Origin: a virus
Virus record (IMG/VR): IMGVR_UViG_3300033571_017142
Location: 1 to 24,325 of that record
DNA: 24,325 nucleotides
Direction: 5' to 3' (one strand)
A program made the position numbers and the translations under genes. Shown piece by piece: positions 1 through 15,789 of the stretch (its first letter is position 1; each line of letters begins with the position of its first letter). The notes beneath the pieces are model-generated. The model made no database searches, had not been told where the DNA came from, and saw nothing but the letters and a program-made list of their open reading frames with translations.

Positions 1-1085
1 TCCCCAAGAAGGGCTTGGCTCGTCAGACTCGTGACGCCTTCGCCCGCTTCTACGGCGGCGAGGTCGAGGTCGGTCTGGCGAGCGAGGGCTTGCGGCTTCC
101 TGGCCCGATTGTGGTCGCCACCGCCCAGACGCTCATCCACTTCAAGGACCGCAAGGTGACCAAAACGGAGGGCACCAGCTCCCGCAAGGTCAAGGTGGAC
201 GGCGACGAGTGGCTGCGCGAACTGATCGAATCGACGAACGTCATCTTCTTCGACGAGTGCCACCGGACCAGCTCGGAGTCCTGGCAGCAGCTCGCACAAG
301 CCTGTCCGGCGATTCGTCGCTACGGCTTGTCCGGCACGCCGCTGACCGAACGTGAGCTGGCCGACGTGCGCCTGGAAGGTGCCACAGGTCCGCTCATCCA
401 CGAGTCCAACGTCACCAAACTGATCCAACGTGGCCTCGCAGCTCGCCCCAAGATCGTGATGGTCGCGGCTGAAGCAGCTTCAGAGATGCTGGACTTCGAG
501 CCGTCGAAGTACTCGGACGCCTACCGCGAGGCGATCACCGACAGCGACGCGCACAACAACGCGGTCGTGCTGGCCGTGAAGTGGCTCATCGAGCACAAAC
601 GCCGTGTGCTCGTCCTCTGCCGCCTCAAGCAGCACTTCGTCAACCTCGCCACCATGCTCGTCGATGATGGCATCGAGATGGCCGCGCTGTGGGGCGACAC
701 CGCCACGAATGAGCGCGTCGAAGCGAAAGAGATGTTCGCCCGGCAGGACATACAATGCATCCTCGCTACTACCATCTTCGACGAGGGTGAGGACGTGCGC
801 GGCATCGACGCCATCGTGCTGGCTGAGGGCGTCACGGCGAACACCTCTGCCTTGCAGCGCATCGGACGCGGGATGCGCCGCGACTCCGAGGACGTGTGGG
901 TCGTTGACTTCGTGCCCCTTGGCAGCGACGTGTTGATCGAGCACGCCTCGAAGCGCGCAGCCATCTACGAGCGCGAAGGATACGAGGTCCGCGTTCTGGA
1001 AAGTTGGCCGGAAGATCAACCGTCGCTGCCTCCAGCCGACTTGCTGCCCTTCGAGACCTGGGACCAGACTCCGCCAGCGTCCTGA
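1..1085 (+). CDS. Superfamily 2 DNA/RNA helicase, N-terminus outside window
   Basis: An ATP-dependent helicase or translocase core, open at the left edge; the first full codon is at 3. Visible motifs in order are motif Ia/Ib (VVATAQTL), motif II FFDECH at 249-263 (a DECH box), motif III SGTP at 330-341, and motif VI QRIGRGMRR at 855-881. Motif I (Walker A) is missing only because it lies upstream of the window. The TTG at 15 is in frame but falls between motifs I and II, so it is not the real start. The family includes T4 UvsW and type III restriction-like helicases. With recombination genes downstream, a UvsW-like role in branch migration or fork remodelling is a reasonable inference, not proven. 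The C-terminal 20 or so residues are Pro/Asp-rich and probably flexible. A 100-nt spacer follows. Confidence 0.9.
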   Translation, partial: PKKGLARQTRDAFARFYGGEVEVGLASEGLRLPGPIVVATAQTLIHFKDRKVTKTEGTSSRKVKVDGDEWLRELIESTNVIFFDECHRTSSESWQQLAQACPAIRRYGLSGTPLTERELADVRLEGATGPLIHESNVTKLIQRGLAARPKIVMVAAEAASEMLDFEPSKYSDAYREAITDSDAHNNAVVLAVKWLIEHKRRVLVLCRLKQHFVNLATMLVDDGIEMAALWGDTATNERVEAKEMFARQDIQCILATTIFDEGEDVRGIDAIVLAEGVTANTSALQRIGRGMRRDSEDVWVVDFVPLGSDVLIEHASKRAAIYEREGYEVRVLESWPEDQPSLPPADLLPFETWDQTPPAS

Positions 1086-1185
1086 CCACCATCCCTTGTG
1101 GTGTCTGCTACGCGGCACCGAAGAAAATGTGGATGGCTTATGCGACCCGCACCGTTAGCGTCGCTCTCGGTGTTCAGGAGTCGTC

Positions 1186-2067
1186 ATGGAACGGATCGCT
1201 TACAGATCCGAGAGAACCGCTGTCGCTATGCCGCAAGTCGCGGAGCGGTCACTCTCGCAAAAGCTCGTCGAGTTGCATACCGAACTGAACCGACTCCCTG
1301 AGTCGGCAGAGAAGGTGTACGACCGTTTGTTCGCGTTGCACCTCGGTGAGCCATCTCGCCGCAAGGACACGCCGCGCAACCGTGCCCTGTTGGAGCGCGC
1401 TCAGGCTTGGTGCGCTCAACACCGTGTCAGTTTCGCCGACTACATCTCGGCGAACCTGATCCTCCTGCGCACACGCGGCTGGTCTCCCGAGCGGAAGAGC
1501 GCACGCTCGTACACGCGCAAAGGTCGGACGTTCCGTGTTCGGATCGTGCCGTCATGGCTGTTGGGCGCGGCAGCCGAGCGTCGGTACAACGGCGTCCTTG
1601 GCCGAGCGAACCGCCGGTATCAGACCGGCTCGACGCTCGTGTTCCCGCGCGCGACGTGGATCGGGTGCATCCGCGAGAACCTGTTCTACGCCGAGTTCGG
1701 CGCAGGTGAGCTGTTCGTTTCGCTGCGTCTTGCCGGTGACCCGATCACCTGGGAAGAAGCGGTCGCGCTGACCACTCCGAACAACCCGGACTGGTCTGAC
1801 TTCCAGCGGCAGGTCGGCCGCTTCACGCAACTGGTCACGCTCGTCAACCAGCAGCGAGCTGTTGCCGAGCGCGACTTCGCGCGTCTGCGCGCGGCATGGT
1901 CGGTCGCGCAGCGGGTGCAGCCCGGTCTTGCAGATCGCATCGGCTTCACCGAGTTTTCGTGGCCTGCGTTCGCGGACATCCTCGCGTACGCGACCGAGGA
2001 CCGGCGTGCTCGAAGGGAGAGCAACGAGATCATCTTGGCGGGTGGGCGTACTTGGGGGAACTGGTGA
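1186..2067 (+). CDS. Hypothetical protein preceding the replicative helicase
   Basis: I do not recognise this 293-residue protein. The ATG at 1186 is chosen because AGGAG lies about six bases upstream; an internal ATG at 1228 has no comparable site. It is basic, with a helical N-terminal third, a central Trp- and Arg-rich stretch (including RGWSPER and WIGCIREN), and a helical C-terminal half containing WEEA and WPAFADILAYA. I see no Walker motif, zinc ligands, signal peptide or membrane segment. The stop TGA overlaps the helicase ATG by one base (TGATG), so translation of the two is probably coupled. Its place directly before a DnaB-family helicase makes a loader or accessory factor conceivable, but nothing in the sequence demonstrates that. 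Confidence 0.8.
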   Translation: MERIAYRSERTAVAMPQVAERSLSQKLVELHTELNRLPESAEKVYDRLFALHLGEPSRRKDTPRNRALLERAQAWCAQHRVSFADYISANLILLRTRGWSPERKSARSYTRKGRTFRVRIVPSWLLGAAAERRYNGVLGRANRRYQTGSTLVFPRATWIGCIRENLFYAEFGAGELFVSLRLAGDPITWEEAVALTTPNNPDWSDFQRQVGRFTQLVTLVNQQRAVAERDFARLRAAWSVAQRVQPGLADRIGFTEFSWPAFADILAYATEDRRARRESNEIILAGGRTWGNW

Positions 2068-3599
2068 TGAGCAAGAGCGTCGTCAGCAACAACTACAATG
2101 AGGACTTCGGTCCATCGTTTCAGCGACACATCCTGGCGGTCATCGCGCGTGTTCCCGGCTTCGCGCTGCGTTGCCGCGCAGTCCTGAGCCATCGGTACTT
2201 CGTCGCGGACACGCACCGTGTCGTCGCTGAGGTGCTGCTTGCCCACCTCGACAAGCACTCCAAGCTGCCCACCAAGCCGACGCTGATCGAGGAGATGCGT
2301 CTTCGTGTCGGCACCGAAGAGATGGAGCCGATCGAGGGTCTGCTCGCCGACATCTATCGCGAGGACGTGCAGGATCACGCTGCCGTCTCCGAGAAGGTCA
2401 TCGCGTTCGGCAAACGGCAGGCGATGCTCAACGCGGTCATCGAGGGTGCCGAGCGCATCGACAAGGGCGACCCGGAGGGCGTCGAGCCGTTGATCCGCAA
2501 GGCCATGCTCGTCGGCGAAGACCTGACGAACCTGGGCACCGACTACATCGGCGAGCTGGGCGACCGCCTGCTCAAGTATCGAACGCCGGAGACACAGCGT
2601 CAGTCCAAGATCCCGACGGGCATCGCGCACGTTGACCATCTGATGAAGGGAGGTCTCGCGCGTCGCGCCCTGGGCGTCTTGCTGGCTCCGCCGAAGCGCG
2701 GCAAATCGACCTGCCTGATAAACATCGGCTTCGGTGCGCTCACCGACCTCGATGGTCTCAACGTCCTGCACTACACCTGCGAGATGAGCGAGTCGGACGT
2801 GATCCGGCGGTACGACGACCGGCTCATGGGCCAGCTCGTTCGCGAGCGGGAAGCTCATCCGGTGCGTTTCACCGAGCAACTGGAGAAGCGGATCAAGCGC
2901 GCCGTTCACGGCAAGCTGATCGTGAAGGAGTATCCGACGCGAACGGCGACCGTGGACACGCTCCGTTCGCACATCTCCATCCTCGCGTCGCAGGGGATGA
3001 TGCCTGACCTCGTGATCGTGGACTACGCAGGCATCATGAAGCCGACGAATCGCCGCGCAGGCGACTACCGGCTGGAGCAAGCCTCGATCTTCGAGGATCT
3101 GCGCGCGCTCGCTGGTGAGTTCGATTGCGCCGTTTGGACGGCACAGCAGGCCAACCGTGGGTCACTCGACAAGGAAACGGTGACCATGGCCGACGTTGCC
3201 GAGACCTTCGAGGTGGCTGCCGTGTGCGACGCGATGTTCGCGCTCTGCCAGACCAACGACGAGCGCGCAGATGGTGTGTGCCGCCTGTTCAGCGCGGCCA
3301 TCCGATCTGTTGAGGACGGCATCACGGTCAACTGCAAGATCGACCGCACCGCTTGCCGTGTTACGTCCACCAACCTTGAGGACGTTTCCCGTTCGCGCAT
3401 CTACACCCACCTCGACGCTGACTTCGAGGACGTGAACGCCAACAAGCCAACGGAGGCCGGAGAGCCTGAGAAGAAAGCTGCTCCGTCCAAGGCCGCTGCA
3501 CTCGCGACTGCTCGTCGCGTCACCGGCATGGCCGCCCCGAAGCCGTCTACTGAGCCTCGTCGCCGTCAGGCTGCTCCAACCAAGAAGGTGCCCAAGTGA
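2067..3599 (+). CDS. dnaB: Replicative DNA helicase, DnaB family
   Basis: Hexameric 5'-3' helicase expected to unwind the phage fork; 510 residues, close to usual DnaB/T4 gp41 lengths. The N-terminal 150 or so residues are helical and DnaB-N-like. The RecA-fold motor follows, with Walker A APPKRGKST at residues 207-215 (compare ARPSMGKT in DnaB), Walker B LVIVDYAGIM with D319, and a sensor segment AVWTAQQANR matching the SQLNR-type motif. The last 60 or so residues are Lys/Ala/Pro-rich and probably disordered. The ATG at 2067 is preferred because it overlaps the upstream stop and follows a GGGGGA stretch; the frame stays open further upstream, but that part reads as out-of-frame Arg-rich sequence. 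The gene overlaps the dUTPase start by four bases (GTGA). Confidence 0.92.
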   Translation: MSKSVVSNNYNEDFGPSFQRHILAVIARVPGFALRCRAVLSHRYFVADTHRVVAEVLLAHLDKHSKLPTKPTLIEEMRLRVGTEEMEPIEGLLADIYREDVQDHAAVSEKVIAFGKRQAMLNAVIEGAERIDKGDPEGVEPLIRKAMLVGEDLTNLGTDYIGELGDRLLKYRTPETQRQSKIPTGIAHVDHLMKGGLARRALGVLLAPPKRGKSTCLINIGFGALTDLDGLNVLHYTCEMSESDVIRRYDDRLMGQLVREREAHPVRFTEQLEKRIKRAVHGKLIVKEYPTRTATVDTLRSHISILASQGMMPDLVIVDYAGIMKPTNRRAGDYRLEQASIFEDLRALAGEFDCAVWTAQQANRGSLDKETVTMADVAETFEVAAVCDAMFALCQTNDERADGVCRLFSAAIRSVEDGITVNCKIDRTACRVTSTNLEDVSRSRIYTHLDADFEDVNANKPTEAGEPEKKAAPSKAAALATARRVTGMAAPKPSTEPRRRQAAPTKKVPK

Positions 3600-4030
3600 C
3601 TTACCTCGTTGTTCGCAAGTTGCACGAAGACGCGCTGACTCCGTATCGCGCTTCGCGTTACGCCGCTGGCCTGGACCTGTTCCTGTATTCTCCGAACGCC
3701 GAGCACCTGCAACTGCTTCCGCACACACCGACGCGCTTGAGCACGGGCGTTTCGGTCGAGATCCCACTCGGCAGCGTCGGGCACATCTGGGATCGAAGCA
3801 GCCTTGGTGTTCGGGGCATTCGCACGTTGGCCGGGGTCATCGACTGTGACTACCGAGGTCCGCTGCAAGTTTGCCTCATCAACCTCACCAACGAGCCGAT
3901 CCAGCTTCAGCATCGAGATCGCATCGCGCAGTTGGTTGTCATTCCCCTGACCGCTTTCGAGCTGGCGGTCAACGAGCACGCCACGGAGACCGAACGCGGC
4001 GAAGGCGGCTTCGGGTCAACGGGTCGATGA
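3596..4030 (+). CDS. dut: dUTP diphosphatase (trimeric dUTPase family)
   Basis: Hydrolyses dUTP to dUMP and pyrophosphate, keeping uracil out of DNA and feeding dTMP synthesis. All five dUTPase motifs are visible in 144 residues: motif 1 AAGLDL (23-28), motif 2 DRSSLG (66-71), motif 3 GVIDCDYRG (80-88) with the catalytic Asp83 and the uracil-pocket Tyr86, motif 4 RIAQLVV (109-115), and the flexible C-terminal P-loop-like motif 5 RGEGGFGSTG (134-143). The start is GTG at 3596, overlapping the helicase stop, with AAGAAGG eight bases upstream. The stop overlaps the primase ATG. Position between helicase and primase, with a UDG-fused polymerase downstream, fits a shared uracil-control strategy. 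Confidence 0.95.
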   Translation: MTYLVVRKLHEDALTPYRASRYAAGLDLFLYSPNAEHLQLLPHTPTRLSTGVSVEIPLGSVGHIWDRSSLGVRGIRTLAGVIDCDYRGPLQVCLINLTNEPIQLQHRDRIAQLVVIPLTAFELAVNEHATETERGEGGFGSTGR

Positions 4031-5070
4031 AGCCTGTTCGCACGCTGGTCGAGTACTTGGACTCGCGGCTCGGTCGCCACATCGGCACTCCGCCGGAGCT
4101 GACGTGGTTCTGCCCCGTTTGCATCGACCGTCGTGGAAGCGAGAGCACCAAGCAGAAGCTCCACATCAACACCACCAAGGGCATCGGGCATTGCTACCGC
4201 TGCGAGTTCGGCTTCCGCAGCCTGGAGCACTTCTTCCGCACGCTGAACAACGGGATGCCGACGCTGGAAGAGCTGCGGATCATCCGTCGCGAGATCAAGC
4301 CCGTTTCCACCAAGGCGGTCGATTCGGTCAACGCGGTCTTGCAGACGAGGACGACGACTACACAAGCTGAACTCGCTCCCGTCGCTCTGCCGAAGGAGCT
4401 GATCTCGCTGACCTCGCGGAATCTGTCCCCCATGGACGGTGTTGGTCTGCGATACCTGAAGTCGCGCGGCATCACCGATGCCCAGATTGCTCGCCACGAG
4501 ATCGGATACTGCTCGTCCGGCCGATACGCCGGATACTTGATCTTCCCAGTCCGGCAGTTTGGCGAGGTCGTCTACTTCACGACGCGATACGCCGGGAAGG
4601 TGACGGACGGACGCAAGTCGAACAACCCGCCGAAGGCTGACGGCTTCCACGCGAAGTCAACGTGCCTGCTGAACTACGACGGTTGCGTTGGCGCGAAGTC
4701 GGTTGCCATCGTCGAAGGCCCGTTCGACATGATGGCGTGGGGAAACGCTGTCGCCCTGATGGGCAAGACCATCTCGGACCGGCAGATCGCTTTGATCGAC
4801 AAGCTCGTCGAGTCGGGGACCAAGGAGATCATCGTCTCGCTCGACTCCGACGCCGTTTCGTACGCACACACGGTCTACACCGGCCTCCTTGGTCGCGTTC
4901 CGAAGGTGACCATGCTCGTGCTGCGTGACGGCGATCCGTTCGACAACCGCGACAAGATCAACGAGCTGGCGGAGACTCGGGGTGCTCCCTCGGCGGTTGA
5001 CCTCGTGTCATCGCGATACCGTGTCGGCGACCTCGTTCATCGACCGAAAACTCGCGCACGCCGCGTCTGA
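4027..5070 (+). CDS. DNA primase, zinc ribbon plus TOPRIM (DnaG-type)
   Basis: Makes RNA primers for the fork; 347 residues, compact compared with bacterial DnaG. An N-terminal zinc ribbon carries C29-x2-C32 and C56-x2-C59. After a linker, the catalytic core contains GYLIFPVR (an RNA-polymerase-fold strand), then the TOPRIM motifs: VAIVEGPFDMMAWG with E230, and VSLDSDA with D273 and D275 for metal binding. There is no C-terminal helicase domain; the helicase is a separate gene two places upstream. The ATG at 4027 overlaps the dUTPase stop (ATGA); the frame remains open further upstream inside dut, but that extension reads as shadow sequence. The C-terminus is Arg-rich. Confidence 0.92.
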   Translation: MKPVRTLVEYLDSRLGRHIGTPPELTWFCPVCIDRRGSESTKQKLHINTTKGIGHCYRCEFGFRSLEHFFRTLNNGMPTLEELRIIRREIKPVSTKAVDSVNAVLQTRTTTTQAELAPVALPKELISLTSRNLSPMDGVGLRYLKSRGITDAQIARHEIGYCSSGRYAGYLIFPVRQFGEVVYFTTRYAGKVTDGRKSNNPPKADGFHAKSTCLLNYDGCVGAKSVAIVEGPFDMMAWGNAVALMGKTISDRQIALIDKLVESGTKEIIVSLDSDAVSYAHTVYTGLLGRVPKVTMLVLRDGDPFDNRDKINELAETRGAPSAVDLVSSRYRVGDLVHRPKTRARRV

Positions 5071-5075
5071 TTCGT

Positions 5076-5399
5076 ATGCTACCCAAGTCAAGACCTCCGT
5101 GCTTCGGGTCGCCCGCGTACTGCGACGCTTGTCGCGAGTGCGCGTTCGCCTCGAAGTGCTGGCAGGAGCACATCAGCTCGCACGACGTGTTCCTGCTGCC
5201 GGAGCCGAAGCCTGCCAGAGTTCGGAGAGAAGCGACCCCTTTCACGTTGGAGCCGGTATGTCGGAAGCCCAATCCAGACTCGTCCAAGCTGGAACAGACG
5301 AACCAAAGTCCGGGTGCTGCTGGTGCCCCCTCTTCCCGTTTGCCGAAGGATTCGGCGCGTACGCCGCGCACTACCAGCGCGACGCGGAAGCGATCCTGA
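5076..5399 (+). CDS. Small cysteine-rich protein, overlapping the polymerase gene
   Basis: 107 residues from ATG 5076, five bases after the primase stop; I see no Shine-Dalgarno site, so coupling to the primase is likely if it is translated. The first 50 or so residues look real: C-FGSP-x2-C-x2-C-x2-C-x6-C, a cysteine cluster of the kind that binds zinc or iron-sulfur, encoded by codons mostly ending in G or C like neighbouring genes. The second half is Ser/Thr/Arg/Pro-rich and reads like shadow sequence of the polymerase gene, which begins inside it at 5258 in another frame (142-nt overlap). It could be a short real protein with an uninformative tail, or the start of a product continued in another frame. 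The function is unknown. Confidence 0.5.
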   Translation: MLPKSRPPCFGSPAYCDACRECAFASKCWQEHISSHDVFLLPEPKPARVRREATPFTLEPVCRKPNPDSSKLEQTNQSPGAAGAPSSRLPKDSARTPRTTSATRKRS

Positions 5400-8149
5400 G
5401 AAAGAACCGCGACGACCACGCGATCAAGACCCATTGTGTCAGCGAACCGTGGACCAAGGTCCGCGTGCTGTTCGTCGGCGAGGCTCCCAGCAAGGACGAC
5501 GACAAGAAGGGTGCTCCGCTATCCGCTGGCCCTGGCGGCCTTCTGAAGCGCACCATCGAGAACGCGACATCGCTGCGTCCAGGCGACTACGGCTTCACCA
5601 ACATCGTTGCGTGTCGTCCGTCCCGCAACCGCGCTCCGAACAACACCGAGGTCAAGTCGTGCTCACCTCGCTTGATCCGCGAGATCCAGGCTCGTCAACC
5701 CGAGCTGGTCGTCGTTCTCGGCAACCATGCTCTCGACTTCCTGACCGGCAACACCGGCATCACGTCGTTCGTTGGCCGCGTCGTTCCATGCACGAGACCT
5801 GAGTTTCCTGGCCTCAAGGTGCTCGCGTGCCTTCACCCGTCGTTCGTCCTTCGCTTCGACCACGAGATCGACAAGTTCTACACCGCCATCGCCTCGATCC
5901 CGACGGTGCTGGCTGGCAAGCACACCGTCCTTGCAGGTGAAGGCAGCTACGAGGTCTTGACCGACATCGACGAGATCGAACGCCGTTTCGCCAAGATCAG
6001 CGAAGCCAAGAAGCTCGTCGCGCACGACACCGAGACCGGAAGCCTGTCGCCGTTCCAGACCAAGTGGCCCAAGCTGCTTTGCGTCTCGTTCTCCCACACG
6101 GCCAACAAGGCGTTCACCATCCCGATCGACCACGCAGACGCGCCTGCTGAGTTCCGCAACCCCGGACCTGTTCGAGATCGCCTGAAGAAGTGCCTCATCG
6201 ACTTCTATACCGACTCTGACGTTCCGAAGGTCGCGCACAACGGCAAGTTCGACCGCAACCACATCCGCGCCACGTTCGACTGCCTGCCGGTCAACGAAAC
6301 TGACTCGATGTTGCTGCACTACGTCCAAGACGAGCGTCAGGGAACGCACGACTTGGGCAAGCTCTCGCACGCGCTCACCGGGATGGGCGGGTACGACAAG
6401 CCGCTGGACGACCACAAAGCGCGAAACGCAAACGCCGACCCGAACAAGGGAGGATCGTACGCCAACATCCCAGGCGAGATCCTGTTCAAGTATGCGGCCA
6501 TGGACGCTGACGTGACTCGTCGCGTCACGCTCGCGCTGCGGCAGGAAGCTGAGTGGGCGAACAACCCCGCGCTTCGCCGCCTCTCCAAGCACTTCTATCC
6601 CCAGTTGTCGAACGCTCTGGCCGAGCTGGAGTGGAACGGCGCGACCATCGACGTGCAGATGGTCGAGTATCTGGACAAGACGTACACGCGCGAGATGGCT
6701 CGCATCGCCGAGGAGATCCAGAGTGACCCGCAGGTCGTTCGTTTCGTCGAGGACCGCCGCGCGGACAAGGGCAAGGACGCCGGGTTCAACCCCGACTCGT
6801 GGCAGCAGCTAGGCAAGATCCTGTTCGGTTACTACGACCTGCGCCCGATCGAGCTGAACGAGAGCGGCATGGACCTGCTCAAGAGCCGACTCGAAGCCCA
6901 GCAGGTGGCTTGGCGCGATCGCCCTGGCAAGAAGATCGGTCCCGACCAGCCCGACTTCAACAAGCTCGTCGAGGCTGCCATCGACGCGAAGGAGTGGGAT
7001 CTGTTCTCGACCAAGGCCGACGTGTTGCAGGAGTACGCCCGCGCCGGGAACACGTTCGTCACCAAGATTCTGGAGTTCCGCGCGTACTCGACCCTGCACG
7101 GCACGTTCGTCGTTCCTCTGCTGACCAAGCTCGACGCGCAACGCCGCGTGCATGGCACTTACAAGCCGCACGGCACCGTGACCGGACGTTTGGCGAGCAG
7201 CGACCCCAACCTCCAGAACATCCCGAACAAGGGAGGCGGTCTGGTAAAGCGATGCTACGTCTCCCGTTTCGGCGACGAGGGCGTCATCGTGCAGGCGGAC
7301 TACTCGCAGATCGAGTTGCGTGTCGCGGCGTGCTTGTTCGAGGAGCCGACGATGATCGACGCATACCGTCGCGGCGACGACCTCCACACGTTGACGGCTA
7401 TCGCCATCTCGAAACTGCCCAAGGACAAGTTCAAGGCGTTGCCGAAGGACCAAGCCAAGGGCTGGCGAACGCGAGCCAAGCGCGTGAACTTCGGCGTGCT
7501 GTACGGCGGCGGCCCGCCCGCCCTCGTTTCCACGCTGGGCAAGGATGGTGTGTTCATCACGCAGAAGGAGGCTGAAGACCTGATCGACACCTACTTCAAG
7601 GCGCGTCCGACCCTCAAGCGCAACATGGACAAGCTCATGGAGAGCGTCCAGAAGAACGGCTATCTGGTCGCGTTCACCGGGCACCGCCGTCGCGTCCCAG
7701 AGGTGTTCTCGAAGGACGAGAAGATCGTCGCTCGCGCACTACGTCAGTCGGTCAACTTCCCCGTGCAATGCGGCGCGGCCCAGATGACCAACATGGCGAT
7801 GATTCTGATCCAGCAGCGGATGCGCGAGGTCGGTTTCAAGTCGCAGATGACCCTCACCGTTCACGACTCCATCGTGTTCGACGCGCACGTTGACGAGATG
7901 GTCGAGATCGGAAAGCTCGCCAAGGAGGTCATGGAGAACCTTCCGTCGATGAGCGAGTCGGTGCTACCGAAACTCGACTGGTCCTGGCTGACCGTGCCCA
8001 TCGTCGCCGAGCTGGAAATCGGCTTCACCTGGGGAACTGGCGTCGAGCTGAAGGAAGCCAAGCTGGGCAAGGAGGAGCGAGCGTTGGACATCAACAACCT
8101 CGACATCGACTACCTGTGGGCCGCCATGGAGGAGAGGTCAAAGCTGTGA
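5258..8149 (+). CDS. Family 4-like uracil-DNA glycosylase fused to family A DNA polymerase
   Basis: 963 residues combining repair and replication. Residues 1 to about 205 resemble an iron-sulfur UDG: C20/C21-W-C23, motif 1 GEAPS (74-78), C119 and C135 spaced as in family 4, and HPS (193-195). A 3'-5' proofreading domain follows: DTE (D257, E259), HNGKFD (D332) and YAAMDAD (D416). The polymerase domain has motif A DYSQIELR (D681), motif B with K741, F745 and Y749 (NFGVLYG), and motif C VHDS (D870). No 5'-3' nuclease domain is present; that activity is encoded at 12545-13528. The ATG at 5258 has GGAG five bases upstream and is the nearest plausible start before the first UDG cysteines. The stop overlaps the next gene (GTGA). 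Polymerases with UDG-like N-termini are, as I recall, known in SPO1-type phages. Confidence 0.93.
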   Translation: MSEAQSRLVQAGTDEPKSGCCWCPLFPFAEGFGAYAAHYQRDAEAILRKNRDDHAIKTHCVSEPWTKVRVLFVGEAPSKDDDKKGAPLSAGPGGLLKRTIENATSLRPGDYGFTNIVACRPSRNRAPNNTEVKSCSPRLIREIQARQPELVVVLGNHALDFLTGNTGITSFVGRVVPCTRPEFPGLKVLACLHPSFVLRFDHEIDKFYTAIASIPTVLAGKHTVLAGEGSYEVLTDIDEIERRFAKISEAKKLVAHDTETGSLSPFQTKWPKLLCVSFSHTANKAFTIPIDHADAPAEFRNPGPVRDRLKKCLIDFYTDSDVPKVAHNGKFDRNHIRATFDCLPVNETDSMLLHYVQDERQGTHDLGKLSHALTGMGGYDKPLDDHKARNANADPNKGGSYANIPGEILFKYAAMDADVTRRVTLALRQEAEWANNPALRRLSKHFYPQLSNALAELEWNGATIDVQMVEYLDKTYTREMARIAEEIQSDPQVVRFVEDRRADKGKDAGFNPDSWQQLGKILFGYYDLRPIELNESGMDLLKSRLEAQQVAWRDRPGKKIGPDQPDFNKLVEAAIDAKEWDLFSTKADVLQEYARAGNTFVTKILEFRAYSTLHGTFVVPLLTKLDAQRRVHGTYKPHGTVTGRLASSDPNLQNIPNKGGGLVKRCYVSRFGDEGVIVQADYSQIELRVAACLFEEPTMIDAYRRGDDLHTLTAIAISKLPKDKFKALPKDQAKGWRTRAKRVNFGVLYGGGPPALVSTLGKDGVFITQKEAEDLIDTYFKARPTLKRNMDKLMESVQKNGYLVAFTGHRRRVPEVFSKDEKIVARALRQSVNFPVQCGAAQMTNMAMILIQQRMREVGFKSQMTLTVHDSIVFDAHVDEMVEIGKLAKEVMENLPSMSESVLPKLDWSWLTVPIVAELEIGFTWGTGVELKEAKLGKEERALDINNLDIDYLWAAMEERSKL

Positions 8150-11397: not shown

Positions 11398-12561
11398 ATG
11401 ACGACCCAGGTCAAGAGAAAGAAGGCTCCCGTCGCTACGGAAGCCAAGCTCCCCAAGCCCGCCGCTGAGGCGGCCCCAACCACGCAGCCGAGCAGCAGCT
11501 CGCTCTTCCACGGTGTCGAGATCGTCGGCAACCGCAAGAAGGGCGGCACCGCGCGTCACCCCGTGACGGCAGTCCTCACCTTGGACCAGATCCAAGTGAT
11601 GAAGGGCTTCAACCCGCGCGCCGACGTGGGTGACATCGAGTCACTTGCCAAGTCGATCAAGGCCGACGGTCTGCTGTCGTCGCTGGTCGTCCGCCCCTCG
11701 GCGAAGGAAGGCAAGTTCGACCTCATCGCAGGTGAGCGTCGCTACCGCGCCCTGAGCAGCATCGGCTGGACGGACGGTGTGCCGGTGCTGATCCGTTCGG
11801 ACCTTCTTGGCGAGGACGAGCGCGCTCTCGCGGTCGCCGTCGCGGAGAACAGCGAGGACGGTCGCTCGAACCTCAACCCCATCGAGATCGGCCGCGTCGT
11901 CCAGAAGCTACGCGATGAGCACGGCTGGGAGCCGCTGCGCATCGCCAAAGAGTGCGGTATGCACCCCCAGAAGGTGCGTCGCGCTCTCGCGCTGATGGGC
12001 ACGCCGGAGTCGGTCCGTGTGCGCATCGCGGACGGCACCATCTCGGCCAACGCCGGTCTGGAGATCGCGCGTTTGGAGAAGGGCACGCAGAACGAGATCG
12101 TCAAGGTGATCGTCGAGGAGGGTGGCGCGAGCAGCGCAGCCGACATCCGCCGCATCCGCAAGCAGATCGCTACTCAGCAGAACGTCGAGGAGACCGCCCT
12201 CAAGGGTCCGAAGACGACCAAGAGTGGTTCGGTCGCCAAGCGCGTTCCGACGGCATGGCGCGGCAGCCGCGAGAAGCAGGAGATGTTGCAGAACATCTGC
12301 GCGCACCTCGCCACTCTGCCGAAGAACGAGAGCGACGCTACGTTCCTCGAACAGCGCGCATTCGCCATCGCGCTGCTGTGGGATCGCGGCGACCTCCAGT
12401 CGCTCGACATCCCGTCGGTCGATGACCCGGCTCCGTCGGCCAAGAAGGCCAACAAGGTGCTCTGGGCGGCCATCAACGCCGAGGCCGCCAAGGCTCCGGC
12501 TCCGACCGAGGGCGCACCGGACGAGGAGTCGGACGAAGCCGACGATGGCGACGAAGGCTGA
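11398..12561 (+). CDS. ParB/Noc-family CTP-binding DNA-binding protein
   Basis: 387 residues. A disordered Lys/Ala/Pro-rich N-terminus is followed by a ParB N-terminal (ParB/Srx) domain: NPRADVGDIESLAKSIKADG, then LIAGERRYRAL with the CTP-binding GERRYRA at 112-118, then the AENSEDGRSNLNPIEIGR box. A helix-turn-helix follows at about 178-200 (IAKECGMHPQKVRRALALM). A helical C-terminal part ends in an acidic tail (DEESDEADDGDEG). In known ParBs, CTP binding lets the protein clamp and slide from a parS site. No ParA gene and no obvious parS palindrome are in the window, so a role in plasmid-like partition, transcription control or replication/recombination is open. Its 3' end overlaps the exonuclease start by 17 bases. 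Confidence 0.88.
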   Translation: MTTQVKRKKAPVATEAKLPKPAAEAAPTTQPSSSSLFHGVEIVGNRKKGGTARHPVTAVLTLDQIQVMKGFNPRADVGDIESLAKSIKADGLLSSLVVRPSAKEGKFDLIAGERRYRALSSIGWTDGVPVLIRSDLLGEDERALAVAVAENSEDGRSNLNPIEIGRVVQKLRDEHGWEPLRIAKECGMHPQKVRRALALMGTPESVRVRIADGTISANAGLEIARLEKGTQNEIVKVIVEEGGASSAADIRRIRKQIATQQNVEETALKGPKTTKSGSVAKRVPTAWRGSREKQEMLQNICAHLATLPKNESDATFLEQRAFAIALLWDRGDLQSLDIPSVDDPAPSAKKANKVLWAAINAEAAKAPAPTEGAPDEESDEADDGDEG

Positions 12562-13528
12562 GGCCGTTCTCGTCGTTGACGCCAACAGCATCATCGTGCC
12601 TGCGGTTCACGCGACCGCGCACGATGATGCTCGCATCGTCAAGCAGTTCACAGGAGCGGTCTACTCCGCCTCCATGACCGTGCGCAGGATTCTCGAAGAC
12701 CTGCAACAACAGCAGTTTTCGGTTCTCGCGGTCTACGCTGCGTTCGACGACGGCATCCCTGCTTTCAGGCGGACGCTGTTTCCCGACTACAAGCAGCATC
12801 GCGCGGCGCGTAAGCACCTTCTCGACGACGAGGAGCTTCACGCACGCGCCTTTGCGCAGATCGGAGTGTGCCGGAACCTGTGGCCGCTTCTTGGCATCCG
12901 ATGCTTGAGCTACGCAGAGCACGAAGCCGACGATGTGGTCGCGGCCATCGCGCGCCGCTGCTTGCGGAAGCAGTTGAAGACTGTCATCGCCTCGTCAGAC
13001 CGCGACCTGTGGCAATGCGTCAACTGGGGCGCGACCGTGTACGACACGCGCAACAACCAGTTCATCGACCGTCACGACTTCAGAGACCGAGCGAACGGAG
13101 TTCCAGCAGAGTCTTGGCTGCTGTACCGAGCGTTGACGGGTGACTCGTCTGACGGACTCAAGGGTGCTCCAGGCTGCGGTCCGCATCGGGCACAGCAACT
13201 GATCGCGGAGACCGCCCCGCAAGGATCGCACGAGCACCAACTACGCGCTCTGTGCAAAACGCTGTCAGAGAAGGCGAAGCCACGAAAGTTCGAGGAGGCT
13301 GTCGTTGCGAGCGAGGCGCACGTCAAGAAGACACTCGCGGCCATCGACTTGTTGGAGTCGTTCTCGCGCGAACGGCTGGCCGAGCTGAAGCGCGACATCG
13401 AAGCTCTCACACCAGTTGCCACGCGCCCGTTCTTGCTGGAATGCAAACGTCTCGGCTTCACGAAGGTACTAGCGGACCCGCATCGCGTTCTTGAACCGTT
13501 CCTTGCTGTGCAGCGCGCGCGAGGGTAA
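12545..13528 (+). CDS. 5'-3' exonuclease / flap endonuclease (T5 D15, PolI-N type)
   Basis: Removes RNA primers and 5' flaps; it complements the polymerase, which lacks this domain. 327 residues contain the full acidic metal-binding set: VLVVDANS (D12), FDDG then FRRTLFPDYKQHR (the helical-arch entry motif), EADD (E127, D129, D130), ASSDRDLW (D152, D154) and LTGDSSDGLKGAPGCG (D200, D203) leading into the helix-hairpin-helix-like DNA-binding loop GCGPHRAQQL. The ATG at 12545 lies inside the end of the ParB-family gene; no strong ribosome site is near, so translational coupling is likely. The reading frame is open far upstream, but that sequence is an Arg/Ser-rich shadow of the ParB gene. Confidence 0.93.
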   Translation: MATKAEAVLVVDANSIIVPAVHATAHDDARIVKQFTGAVYSASMTVRRILEDLQQQQFSVLAVYAAFDDGIPAFRRTLFPDYKQHRAARKHLLDDEELHARAFAQIGVCRNLWPLLGIRCLSYAEHEADDVVAAIARRCLRKQLKTVIASSDRDLWQCVNWGATVYDTRNNQFIDRHDFRDRANGVPAESWLLYRALTGDSSDGLKGAPGCGPHRAQQLIAETAPQGSHEHQLRALCKTLSEKAKPRKFEEAVVASEAHVKKTLAAIDLLESFSRERLAELKRDIEALTPVATRPFLLECKRLGFTKVLADPHRVLEPFLAVQRARG

Positions 13529-13538
13529 GAATGCTTGC

Positions 13539-13566
13539 TTTACGCGAGAGATTCTTGAGCTATCCT
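13539..13566 (+). promoter_or_regulatory. Candidate promoter upstream of the 13584 gene
   Basis: In the 55-base gap after the exonuclease gene, TTTACG (13539-13544) and TATCCT (13561-13566) are 16 bases apart, four of six consensus matches each. A strong ribosome site GGAGAGG (13572-13578) and ATG 13584 follow at once, giving a short leader. TATCCTG also appears at 21534-21540 ahead of the portal gene. Confidence 0.3.
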
Positions 13567-13583
13567 GTATAGGAGAGGGCACC

Positions 13584-14546
13584 ATGACCGCGTTCGACAA
13601 ACTCTGTTGGATGGCCGAACGGCACGAAGACGTGCTTGGCTCCAACTTGCTTCGACTGCTACGGCAAGCCGCGCTGTTCAGCTTCCCGTATGTCGCACAC
13701 GAGGTTCTTCCGAAGTCGTACACCGCCGAGGAGATCGCCTTCCAGCGCGAGTTCTTCGTCTTGCCGTTCAGCGTCACCGCCATCGAGGACAAGACCTCGT
13801 GCGTGCTGCTGTGGGATGAATCGGCGTCTTCTGGTCTGGCTGTGCGGCGGTTCTTCGTCGAGTTTGCGTCGCTCGCGTCCATGCATCGCAGCACCGCATC
13901 GAACGGCGAGCAGGCCAACGCGCTTTGGAAGAACTACGAAGAAGAGATGCAGGCCCGCAAGGAGCTTGGTCCTGACTTGATGCGTGTGCTCGACGAGTCG
14001 TACCAACTGTCGTTTGGCGAGATCACCGTCGCCGACAGCGTGCAGTACCGCTACGAGCTGCGCGGCGACGTGTTCCAGTTCGTGATCCTGAACGACCAGG
14101 GTGTCTCACCTCTTGGTCAGCTCATCTGGAACGAGAACCAGCAGCGCATCTCGGAGGGTTGCTTGCGCAACGCCATGACCGCCATCGAGGAGCTGATGGT
14201 GTTCAACCGTCCAGACCGCTTCATCGTCCGCGAAACGCCAGCACGCCTTCGCGAAGCCAACTCGATCAAGATCCCGCGCGCGCACGAGCGGCACGTCTAC
14301 ACGCTTCTGCACCCGACGGAGATCCGAACGCGACTGAATCTGCCCAGGCCGCAGGACGCTGATGCGACCGGCAAGGCGGCTCCCCGATTCGTCGGTGAGC
14401 GTCGTCGTCACGTTCGCCGCTACCCTGACGATCCGTCTCGCTGGCCGAATATGCACGGCAAGTCGATCATCATCCCTGCGACCTGGGTCGGTCCGTCTGA
14501 GTCCGTCGTCGGTCGTCGCACCTACAAGATCATGCTCGACCTATGA
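13584..14546 (+). CDS. Hypothetical protein, 320 residues
   Basis: Not recognised. ATG 13584 is chosen for the strong GGAGAGG five bases upstream; an in-frame GTG at 13491 would overlap the exonuclease gene and has no such site. The N-terminal half is mixed helix and strand with aromatic residues (EEIAFQREFFVLPF). The middle is strand-rich (YRYELRGDVFQFVILNDQG). The C-terminal 60 residues are basic, with RRRHVRRYPDD, then IIIPATW and GRRTYKIML, which resembles a C-terminal segment seen in many phage proteins of unknown function. No membrane segment, signal peptide, P-loop or clear catalytic set is visible. The stop overlaps the next ATG (ATGA), so it begins a coupled run continuing to the SbcC-like gene. 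Confidence 0.85.
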   Translation: MTAFDKLCWMAERHEDVLGSNLLRLLRQAALFSFPYVAHEVLPKSYTAEEIAFQREFFVLPFSVTAIEDKTSCVLLWDESASSGLAVRRFFVEFASLASMHRSTASNGEQANALWKNYEEEMQARKELGPDLMRVLDESYQLSFGEITVADSVQYRYELRGDVFQFVILNDQGVSPLGQLIWNENQQRISEGCLRNAMTAIEELMVFNRPDRFIVRETPARLREANSIKIPRAHERHVYTLLHPTEIRTRLNLPRPQDADATGKAAPRFVGERRRHVRRYPDDPSRWPNMHGKSIIIPATWVGPSESVVGRRTYKIMLDL

Positions 14547-14755
14547 ACAAGCGCGCCTCGTGGTCCACGGTGTTCGCCGCATCCGCCTTCGCCCACGTTG
14601 GCGTCATGTGGAGCGGTGGCTTCTCCGTCTTGTCCTGGCTGGCTTCGCTGCCGTTTCTCGGTGCGTGCGTGCTTGCCTTCGGCTTCCTGTACGCGGGCGG
14701 CACGGGCGTTGAGACGCCTGAGCAAGAGCAGCCGCCGCGCCGTGAGGATCTGTGA
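14543..14755 (+). CDS. Small membrane protein with two predicted transmembrane segments
   Basis: 70 residues, ATG overlapping the upstream stop (ATGA) and its own TGA overlapping the SbcD GTG. After a basic start (MNKR), residues 8-25 and 29-52 are hydrophobic with only Gly/Ser/Trp/His breaks, consistent with a two-helix hairpin in the inner membrane. The C-terminal 18 residues are polar and charged (PEQEQPPRRED) and probably cytoplasmic by the positive-inside rule. It is not obviously a holin: it sits in a recombination operon, with no endolysin nearby. The function is unknown. Confidence 0.72.
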   Translation: MNKRASWSTVFAASAFAHVGVMWSGGFSVLSWLASLPFLGACVLAFGFLYAGGTGVETPEQEQPPRREDL

Positions 14756-15789
14756 AGCGCGTCGCGCTCACCGCCGACCTCCAGCTTCAGCCGCAGTCAC
14801 GATACTCGACGCTCTCCGCGTCGGGTGTGACTACGCGGCTTGAGGACTTCATCCGGTGCTTCGAGTGGATCGTTGCGGAGGCGACCAAGGCCAAGTGCGA
14901 CACGTTGTTCATCCTCGGCGACTTGTTCGACTCGCGCACGGTCATCGACGTGTCGGTCATCGACAAGTCGTGCCGAGCGTTCGCTGAAGCGCGCAAGCAC
15001 CTCGACATCCACGTTCTCGTCGGCAACCACGACGCTTACCTGAGGTCATCCGCCATCAACTCGACGCAGATGCTGCGCGGCCTCGCCACGATTCACGAAG
15101 AGGTGGCGACCGTCGGGCCATTTGTTGTCGTTCCGTGGGTTGACGCGCACGACGCCTACGAGCGCGCCTTGCAGCGAGCTGACACGCTGTTCACCAAGAT
15201 GCGGGTGCCTCGGTCGTATCTGCTTTCGCACGGGATGTTCGGGTCGGCGGTTCCGATGGCGAAAGGTCTGCCGGTCGAGTGGCTTCAGAACTCTCCGTGG
15301 GCTGGCGTGTTCCTCGGTGACGTTCACGATCCGGTCGTGTTGCAGAAGAACCCGGTCATTCGCTACGTCGGCTCGCCGCTTCAGATTCACTTCGGCGACG
15401 CGGGTCGCCAGCGTGGGTTCGTCATCCTCGACGCGGAAACGGGGAAACACGACTACATCGAGAACACGGTCAGTCCGCGATTCCACGTCATCGCCGAGCA
15501 CGCTGACCTGAAGGCTGCACGAAAGAACGACTTTCTCCGCGTCAACCCGAAGATCGCGGCTCCGTGTGGCCTCATCAACCGTCTCGTTCACGACGCCAAG
15601 GCGTTGAGCACTTGGGTGACCACGGAAACGATCGTCGAAGACGACTCTCCGATGGCTCGCATCGTCAACGCCAACAGTATGCACGACGAGCAACTGCTGC
15701 GTGCGTACTGCACGTTCAGCAAGATCGCGGACCCTGATCGCCTGATCGCCACCGGACTCAATCTGCTCAAGGAGGCGCGCGAACTGTGA
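14752..15789 (+). CDS. sbcD: SbcD/Mre11-like nuclease subunit (T4 gp47-like)
   Basis: Calcineurin-fold metallophosphoesterase subunit that, with the SbcC-like ATPase encoded next, resects or opens DNA ends. 345 residues. Visible motifs: TADLQL (D9, Q11), LGDLFDSR (D57), GNHD (N92, H93, D94), SHG (H160) and GDVH (D190, H192), followed by a YVGSPLQIHFG segment and a C-terminal capping region. Motif I normally reads D-x-H; here it is D-x-Gln. The usual GHxH reads GDVH; that Asp variant I recall from phage relatives. The start is GTG 14752 in a GTGA overlap with the membrane-protein gene. The stop overlaps the SbcC GTG the same way, so the two subunits are translationally coupled. Confidence 0.9.
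   Translation: MKRVALTADLQLQPQSRYSTLSASGVTTRLEDFIRCFEWIVAEATKAKCDTLFILGDLFDSRTVIDVSVIDKSCRAFAEARKHLDIHVLVGNHDAYLRSSAINSTQMLRGLATIHEEVATVGPFVVVPWVDAHDAYERALQRADTLFTKMRVPRSYLLSHGMFGSAVPMAKGLPVEWLQNSPWAGVFLGDVHDPVVLQKNPVIRYVGSPLQIHFGDAGRQRGFVILDAETGKHDYIENTVSPRFHVIAEHADLKAARKNDFLRVNPKIAAPCGLINRLVHDAKALSTWVTTETIVEDDSPMARIVNANSMHDEQLLRAYCTFSKIADPDRLIATGLNLLKEAREL

Follow-up and report, generated by a model that had tools for sequence, protein, structure and literature searches.

The virus record analyzed here (the window; an entire record of 24,325 bases) encodes a family-A DNA polymerase that carries a uracil-DNA glycosylase (UDG) domain, a 3'-5' exonuclease, and a PolA domain in one chain. By predicted structure, the N-terminal domain has a UDG fold nearest to that of the family-4 UDGs; judged from its pocket residues, uracil excision by the window copy is probably attenuated or absent. 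The reading that we favor (probability, about 0.55) is a UDG module that binds DNA while tethered to the polymerase and whose uracil chemistry is weakened in the window copy. The fusion architecture is already known from SPO1-type phages, the PaBG group, and the solved phiLo polymerase; the window polymerase is of value as a member of a natural series whose pockets run from intact through altered to dead.

Gene and domain organization

The polymerase ATG has a GGAG 5 bases upstream and opens a single frame without stops (Table 1). Pfam domains were matched in the order UDG (residues 67 to 203), exonuclease (231 to 430), and DNA_pol_A (581 to 926), all above the cut-offs; three such matches in one 963-aa frame are far beyond chance and confirm the initial annotation, which had placed a UDG domain, exonuclease, and PolA motifs in a single frame. 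All of the exonuclease residues (D257, E259, D332, Y412, and D416) and polymerase residues (D681, R737, K741, H869, and D870) were found, with D257, E259, D332, D416, D681, R737, K741, and D870 invariant among 33 aligned sequences. One phrog_17 match ("DNA polymerase"; E, 3.3e-154) spans residues 64 to 940, so the UDG-exonuclease-PolA arrangement already lies within a known phage family. In a fold search, the full-length model (pTM, 0.84) drew mostly Klenow-type matches; its C-terminal part resembles those structures at Z 34.9. An assembly or frameshift artifact was ruled out because the fusion recurs on independent contigs (survey loci L022, L102, L103, and L104/L105).

Table 1. Coordinates of features in the window
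Feature	Position	Strand	Evidence or remark
DnaB-like helicase; stop overlaps dUTPase start	1896..3599	+	phrog_19, E 2.9e-72
dUTPase, 144 aa	3596..4030	+	TIGR00576, 125.9 bits (cut-off, 102.55); PF00692, 2.5e-28
DNA primase; start codon overlaps dUTPase stop	4027..5070	+	phrog_47, E 1.6e-41; start read from sequence
Small Cys-rich frame, just before and overlapping polymerase start	5076..5399	+	First half conserved in L103 and L104/L105
UDG-exonuclease-PolA fusion polymerase, 963 aa	5258..8149	+	Frame, Pfam, PHROG, full-length model
UDG-fold domain, residues 1-225	5258..5932	+	PF03167, E 1.2e-23; model pLDDT 89; Z 22.0 to 1ui1
CxxC, predicted cluster ligands C20 and C23	5315..5326	+	Nearly invariant in 52 fusions
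Insert of ~27 residues, CxxC to motif A, about residues 33-59	5354..5434	+	Only in the window's clade
Motif A region GEAPSKDDDKKGAPL, residues 74-88 (S78, D81, L88 diverged)	5477..5521	+	Residue mapping
N115 (uracil-binding Asn), C119, N124, C135	5600..5662	+	Residue mapping; C119 and C135 invariant in alignment A6
Motif B HPSFVLR, residues 193-199; catalytic His equivalent H193	5834..5854	+	Residue mapping
3'-5' exonuclease domain, residues 231-430	5948..6547	+	PF01612, E 4.7e-16
Family-A polymerase domain, residues 581-926	6998..8035	+	PF00476, E 1.9e-81; Z 34.9 to Bacillus Pol I large fragment

UDG fold and cluster cysteines

The N-terminal domain was modeled with AlphaFold2 using 51 relatives, and the UDG fold proposed from its motifs was borne out by both the profile match and the model (Table 1). 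At E < 1e-10, every hit in a sequence search of solved structures was a family-4 UDG or UdgX, and Foldseek on the model placed family-4 UDGs first (4zbx, 4.9e-13). The VIA-align match to Thermus 1ui1 (175 residues aligned; rmsd, 2.5) covers residues 6 to 221, so the CxxC region falls within the alignment. The earlier assignment to family 4 was nearly right: fold, ligands, and motif B agree, but the motif A Gly does not, and the best NCBIfam model, UDG_fam4 (TIGR00758), scores 97.7 bits, below its curated cut-off of 125.3. A UdgX-type cross-linking enzyme was ruled out by the lack of an R-loop; the sequence has neither the GEQPG motif nor the KRRIH loop, and TIGR03914 (UdgX) scores 53.7 bits against a cut-off of 189.95.

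The four cysteines that the initial annotation read in family-4 spacing, C20 and C23 (CxxC) and C119 and C135 (C-x15-C), do lie at the family-4 positions, from which the domain would be expected to fold around a [4Fe-4S] cluster held by all four. From the CxxC to motif A, the window copy has 56 residues, ~27 more than other UDGs. This distance is 55 to 63 in the window copy (P0001), L022, L103, and L104/L105 and 26 to 39 in nearly all other fusions; the insert is also present in L102, whose contig begins inside it.

Uracil pocket

The pocket was mapped by the Thermus UDGa residues E41, G42, E47, F54, N80, N89, and H155 (PMC5387724). In the window copy, E41 corresponds to E75, G42 to A76, G44 to S78, E47 to D81, F54 to L88, N80 to N115, N89 to N124, and H155 to H193. 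E75, N115, N124, and H193 are thus kept, and position 42, here A76, is Ala or Gly in the family; the family-4 pocket is incompletely retained, with G44S, E47D, and F54L (Thermus numbering). The GEAP and HPS motifs reported at first are both there (G74 to P77 and H193 to S195), and HPSFVLR agrees with family-4 motif B (HPxxxxR), but motif A runs on with S78 as GEAPS (residues 74 to 78), where family 4 is defined by GE(A/G)PG (PMC10359453). In Thermus UDGa, k2/Km falls ~17-fold in F54A, ~120-fold in E47A, and >1,000-fold in H155S (PMC5387724). Since the window changes are milder than alanines and Glu47 is the thymine-blocking residue, they suggest reduced and perhaps less selective activity.

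Survey of related fusions

In a profile scan of IMG/VR, 499 loci matched and 80 were kept; L102, L103, and L104/L105 came from a clade-specific scan, which also refound L022. The 96 polymerases surveyed (scan loci plus phage records) include redundant contigs, and loci were chosen by conserved exonuclease-domain peptides, so the counts are not independent events. A UDG domain scored >20 bits in 92 of the 96; four cysteines were found in 81 and a fully intact pocket in 44. To judge from these sequences, UDG-PolA fusions are common in uncultured phages and often have what appears to be a complete active site. Since the pocket is fully canonical in about half of the fusions, two of the four nearest to the window copy among them, selection may act on catalysis in many lineages. 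A search for prophage relatives in bacterial genomes found none.

Within the window's clade (43 to 49% identity), the L102 and L105 pockets are canonical; that of L103 is canonical apart from a motif A of GDKPG. L022 has AESPN, Asn80 to Tyr, Asn89 to Gly, and His155 to Ala and yet keeps all four cysteines, which argues that the cluster scaffold is more widely kept than catalysis. The initial annotation had taken the retained ligands as grounds for testing the domain as an active enzyme; as a pointer to activity they are unsupported, since ligands persist in L022 where the catalytic His and uracil-binding Asn are lost, and the window copy itself is altered at three pocket positions. GEAPS with an otherwise intact pocket was also found in L069 and L074. 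UDG/polymerase branch-length ratios were 0.41 (L105), 0.85 (L103), 1.14 (window copy), 1.24 (L102), and 1.95 (L022), a weak series of five sequences in which canonical L102 exceeds the window copy. The closely related pockets of L102 and L105 (intact), the window copy (partly changed), and L022 (dead) make up a natural series, which bears on whether such domains are working glycosylases on a replicative polymerase or repurposed DNA-binding modules.

Elsewhere in the survey, altered pockets (GDNPN, QENPF, and ADNPT) occur alongside thymidylate-synthase (TS)-fold or dUMP-hydroxymethylase genes in SPO1 (L018), LysYB1 (L005), PMBT14 (L009), Lebethron (L013), Serbin (L015), P744 (L019), L025, and L077.

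Gene neighborhood

The replication block runs in the order DnaB-like helicase, dUTPase, primase, UDG-PolA, gp32-like SSB, RecA, ParB-like protein, 5'-3' exonuclease, and SbcCD-like proteins, with terminase-like and T4-type portal genes after it. The ParB-like protein (ParB_N plus HTH_ParB; 11398 to 12561) has RecA on one side and the 5'-3' exonuclease on the other. The block also encodes a 351-aa protein (13491 to 14546) with no match in Pfam or PHROGs and a 293-aa protein (1186 to 2067) with no match in Pfam, the only library searched for it. In L103, the DnaB-like helicase (131 to 3043) is split at about Walker A (GKC...HNTT) by a LAGLIDADG-domain intein; the window's helicase is free of an intein of this type.

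The dUTPase noted earlier ~1.2 kb upstream of the polymerase is real, with a TIGR00576 score above the cut-off; its end lies 1.23 kb from the polymerase start, and the primase gene stands between. As a conserved partner of the fusion it was rejected: of 56 records that bear the fusion or are related, only 14 had PF00692, and searches of the 74-kb L105 record and of the fragments L103 and L021 gave no match. L021, the relative with the nearest portal protein (67% identical), encodes a ThyX-type thymidylate synthase downstream of its structural genes (14373 to 15491), so phages of this group may convert dUMP to dTMP themselves, in which case the dUTPase would have an ordinary role in dUMP supply.

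Directly upstream of UDG-PolA, a small Cys-rich frame (CF/Y-x2-P-x2-CxxCxxC-x6-C-x3-H with a VxLLP tail) is shared by three lineages of the clade: the window, L103 (near 4814), and L104/L105 (7503 to 7880). It had no match in Pfam.

Proposed function and alternatives

Under the favored reading, the gene product would serve the phage as its replicative PolA and carry a family-4-type UDG domain in cis, setting a DNA-binding, uracil-recognizing surface beside the exonuclease and polymerase. Its main conserved job would most likely be binding template or product DNA at the fork, uracil recognition being the proposed ancestral function. Excision by the window copy is probably attenuated, with the catalytic His, the uracil-binding Asn, the water-positioning Asn, and the motif A Glu kept and Ser, Asp, and Leu in place of Gly44, Glu47, and Phe54.

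A catalytically dead UDG fold whose sole role is to clamp DNA or give the polymerase processivity, as vaccinia D4 does in its processivity role (PMC5682278), is a serious contender that we consider less likely than not. The survey's excess of four-cysteine domains over intact pockets and the retention of the scaffold in L022 after loss of its His and Asn point this way, but the catalytic His and both Asn kept in the window copy would be needless in a purely structural domain. Full competence, with uracil removed from template or nascent strand during replication, is rated only slightly lower. The window copy keeps H193, N115, N124, E75, and every cysteine, its sisters L102 and L105 are canonical, L069 and L074 combine GEAPS with an otherwise intact pocket, and uracil avoidance would suit an operon that also encodes a dUTPase; set against these are G44S, E47D, and F54L (alanines at F54 and E47 being costly in the Thermus enzyme), the score under the curated family-4 cut-off, and the dead sister L022. 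An abasic site at a replication fork would block the polymerase, and a glycosylase acting there would create one. A bolder version, which we consider rather unlikely, is that the phage polymerase doubles as a glycosylase and ties uracil excision to the replication it performs, the hallmarks of its clade being the ~27-residue insert beside the predicted cluster and the conserved small Cys-rich protein encoded immediately upstream.

Archaeal family-B polymerases have an N-terminal uracil pocket, and by analogy, the domain could be a read-ahead sensor, halting the polymerase when its pocket binds template uracil but leaving the base in place. The uracil-contacting N115 and H193 are kept and the stacking Phe is lost, as such a sensor might have it; the resemblance of other fusions to complete enzymes makes it improbable. 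Least probable, in our view, is a pocket retuned in part of the family for thymine-replacing phages (hydroxymethyl-dU type), so that the domain reads or tolerates modified pyrimidines. Altered pockets do occur in SPO1 (dUMP hydroxymethylase gp29), Serbin, PMBT14, and others, and a TS-fold gene was found in 14 of 24 altered records against 7 of 29 intact ones (Fisher p, 0.023, uncorrected for kinship and redundancy). However, MW202455 pairs an intact pocket with a "pyrimidine hmase," and L105 (74 kb), the longest of the window's close relatives, gave no TS, ThyX, or dUTPase match; a thymine-modification link is unsupported for the window's phage and is a lead for other lineages only.

Comparison with known systems

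The remark in the initial annotation that UDG-like N termini are known in some phage polymerases was correct but understated, as the fusion is both widespread and published. A search of the literature for reported activity of any UDG-PolA fusion found none. With Thermus thermophilus UDGa (1UI0/1UI1), the window domain shares the fold, four cysteines, motif B, and equivalents of the catalytic His and Asn; it differs in its fusion to PolA, its ~27-residue insert, and GEAPS, E47D, and F54L. The polymerase of MW202455 (Manatee Spring phage) is a UDG-PolA fusion like the window's, but its domain is fully canonical family 4 (TIGR00758, 185 bits against 97.7). SPO1-type polymerases (SPO1 gp31 and Lysinibacillus LysYB1) have the same domain order, and that of LysYB1 is the window's best match among isolated phages (32.7%). 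Both pockets are heavily altered, with dUMP hydroxymethylase or TS genes nearby, and the SPO1 polymerase, unlike the window's, is without the cluster cysteines. The phiLo family-A polymerase (PDB 9QHS, released March 2026) is solved and has a UDG-like N terminus (Z, 15.3 to the window's domain), but is distant from the window's polymerase.

The PaBG paper describes chains with an N-terminal UDG, 3'-5' exonuclease, and polymerase in eleven jumbo phages, PaBG and the Lupandier phages among them, which belong to a different phage group from the window's (PMC7412058). The work is in silico, and its account of these chains does not discuss cluster or pocket residues (PMC7412058). In the vaccinia D4/A20/E9 holoenzyme, a UDG likewise works physically with the replicative polymerase, D4 serving as a processivity subunit (PMC5682278); there, however, the UDG is a separate subunit joined via A20 and the polymerase is of family B, whereas the window's UDG lies in the polymerase chain itself.
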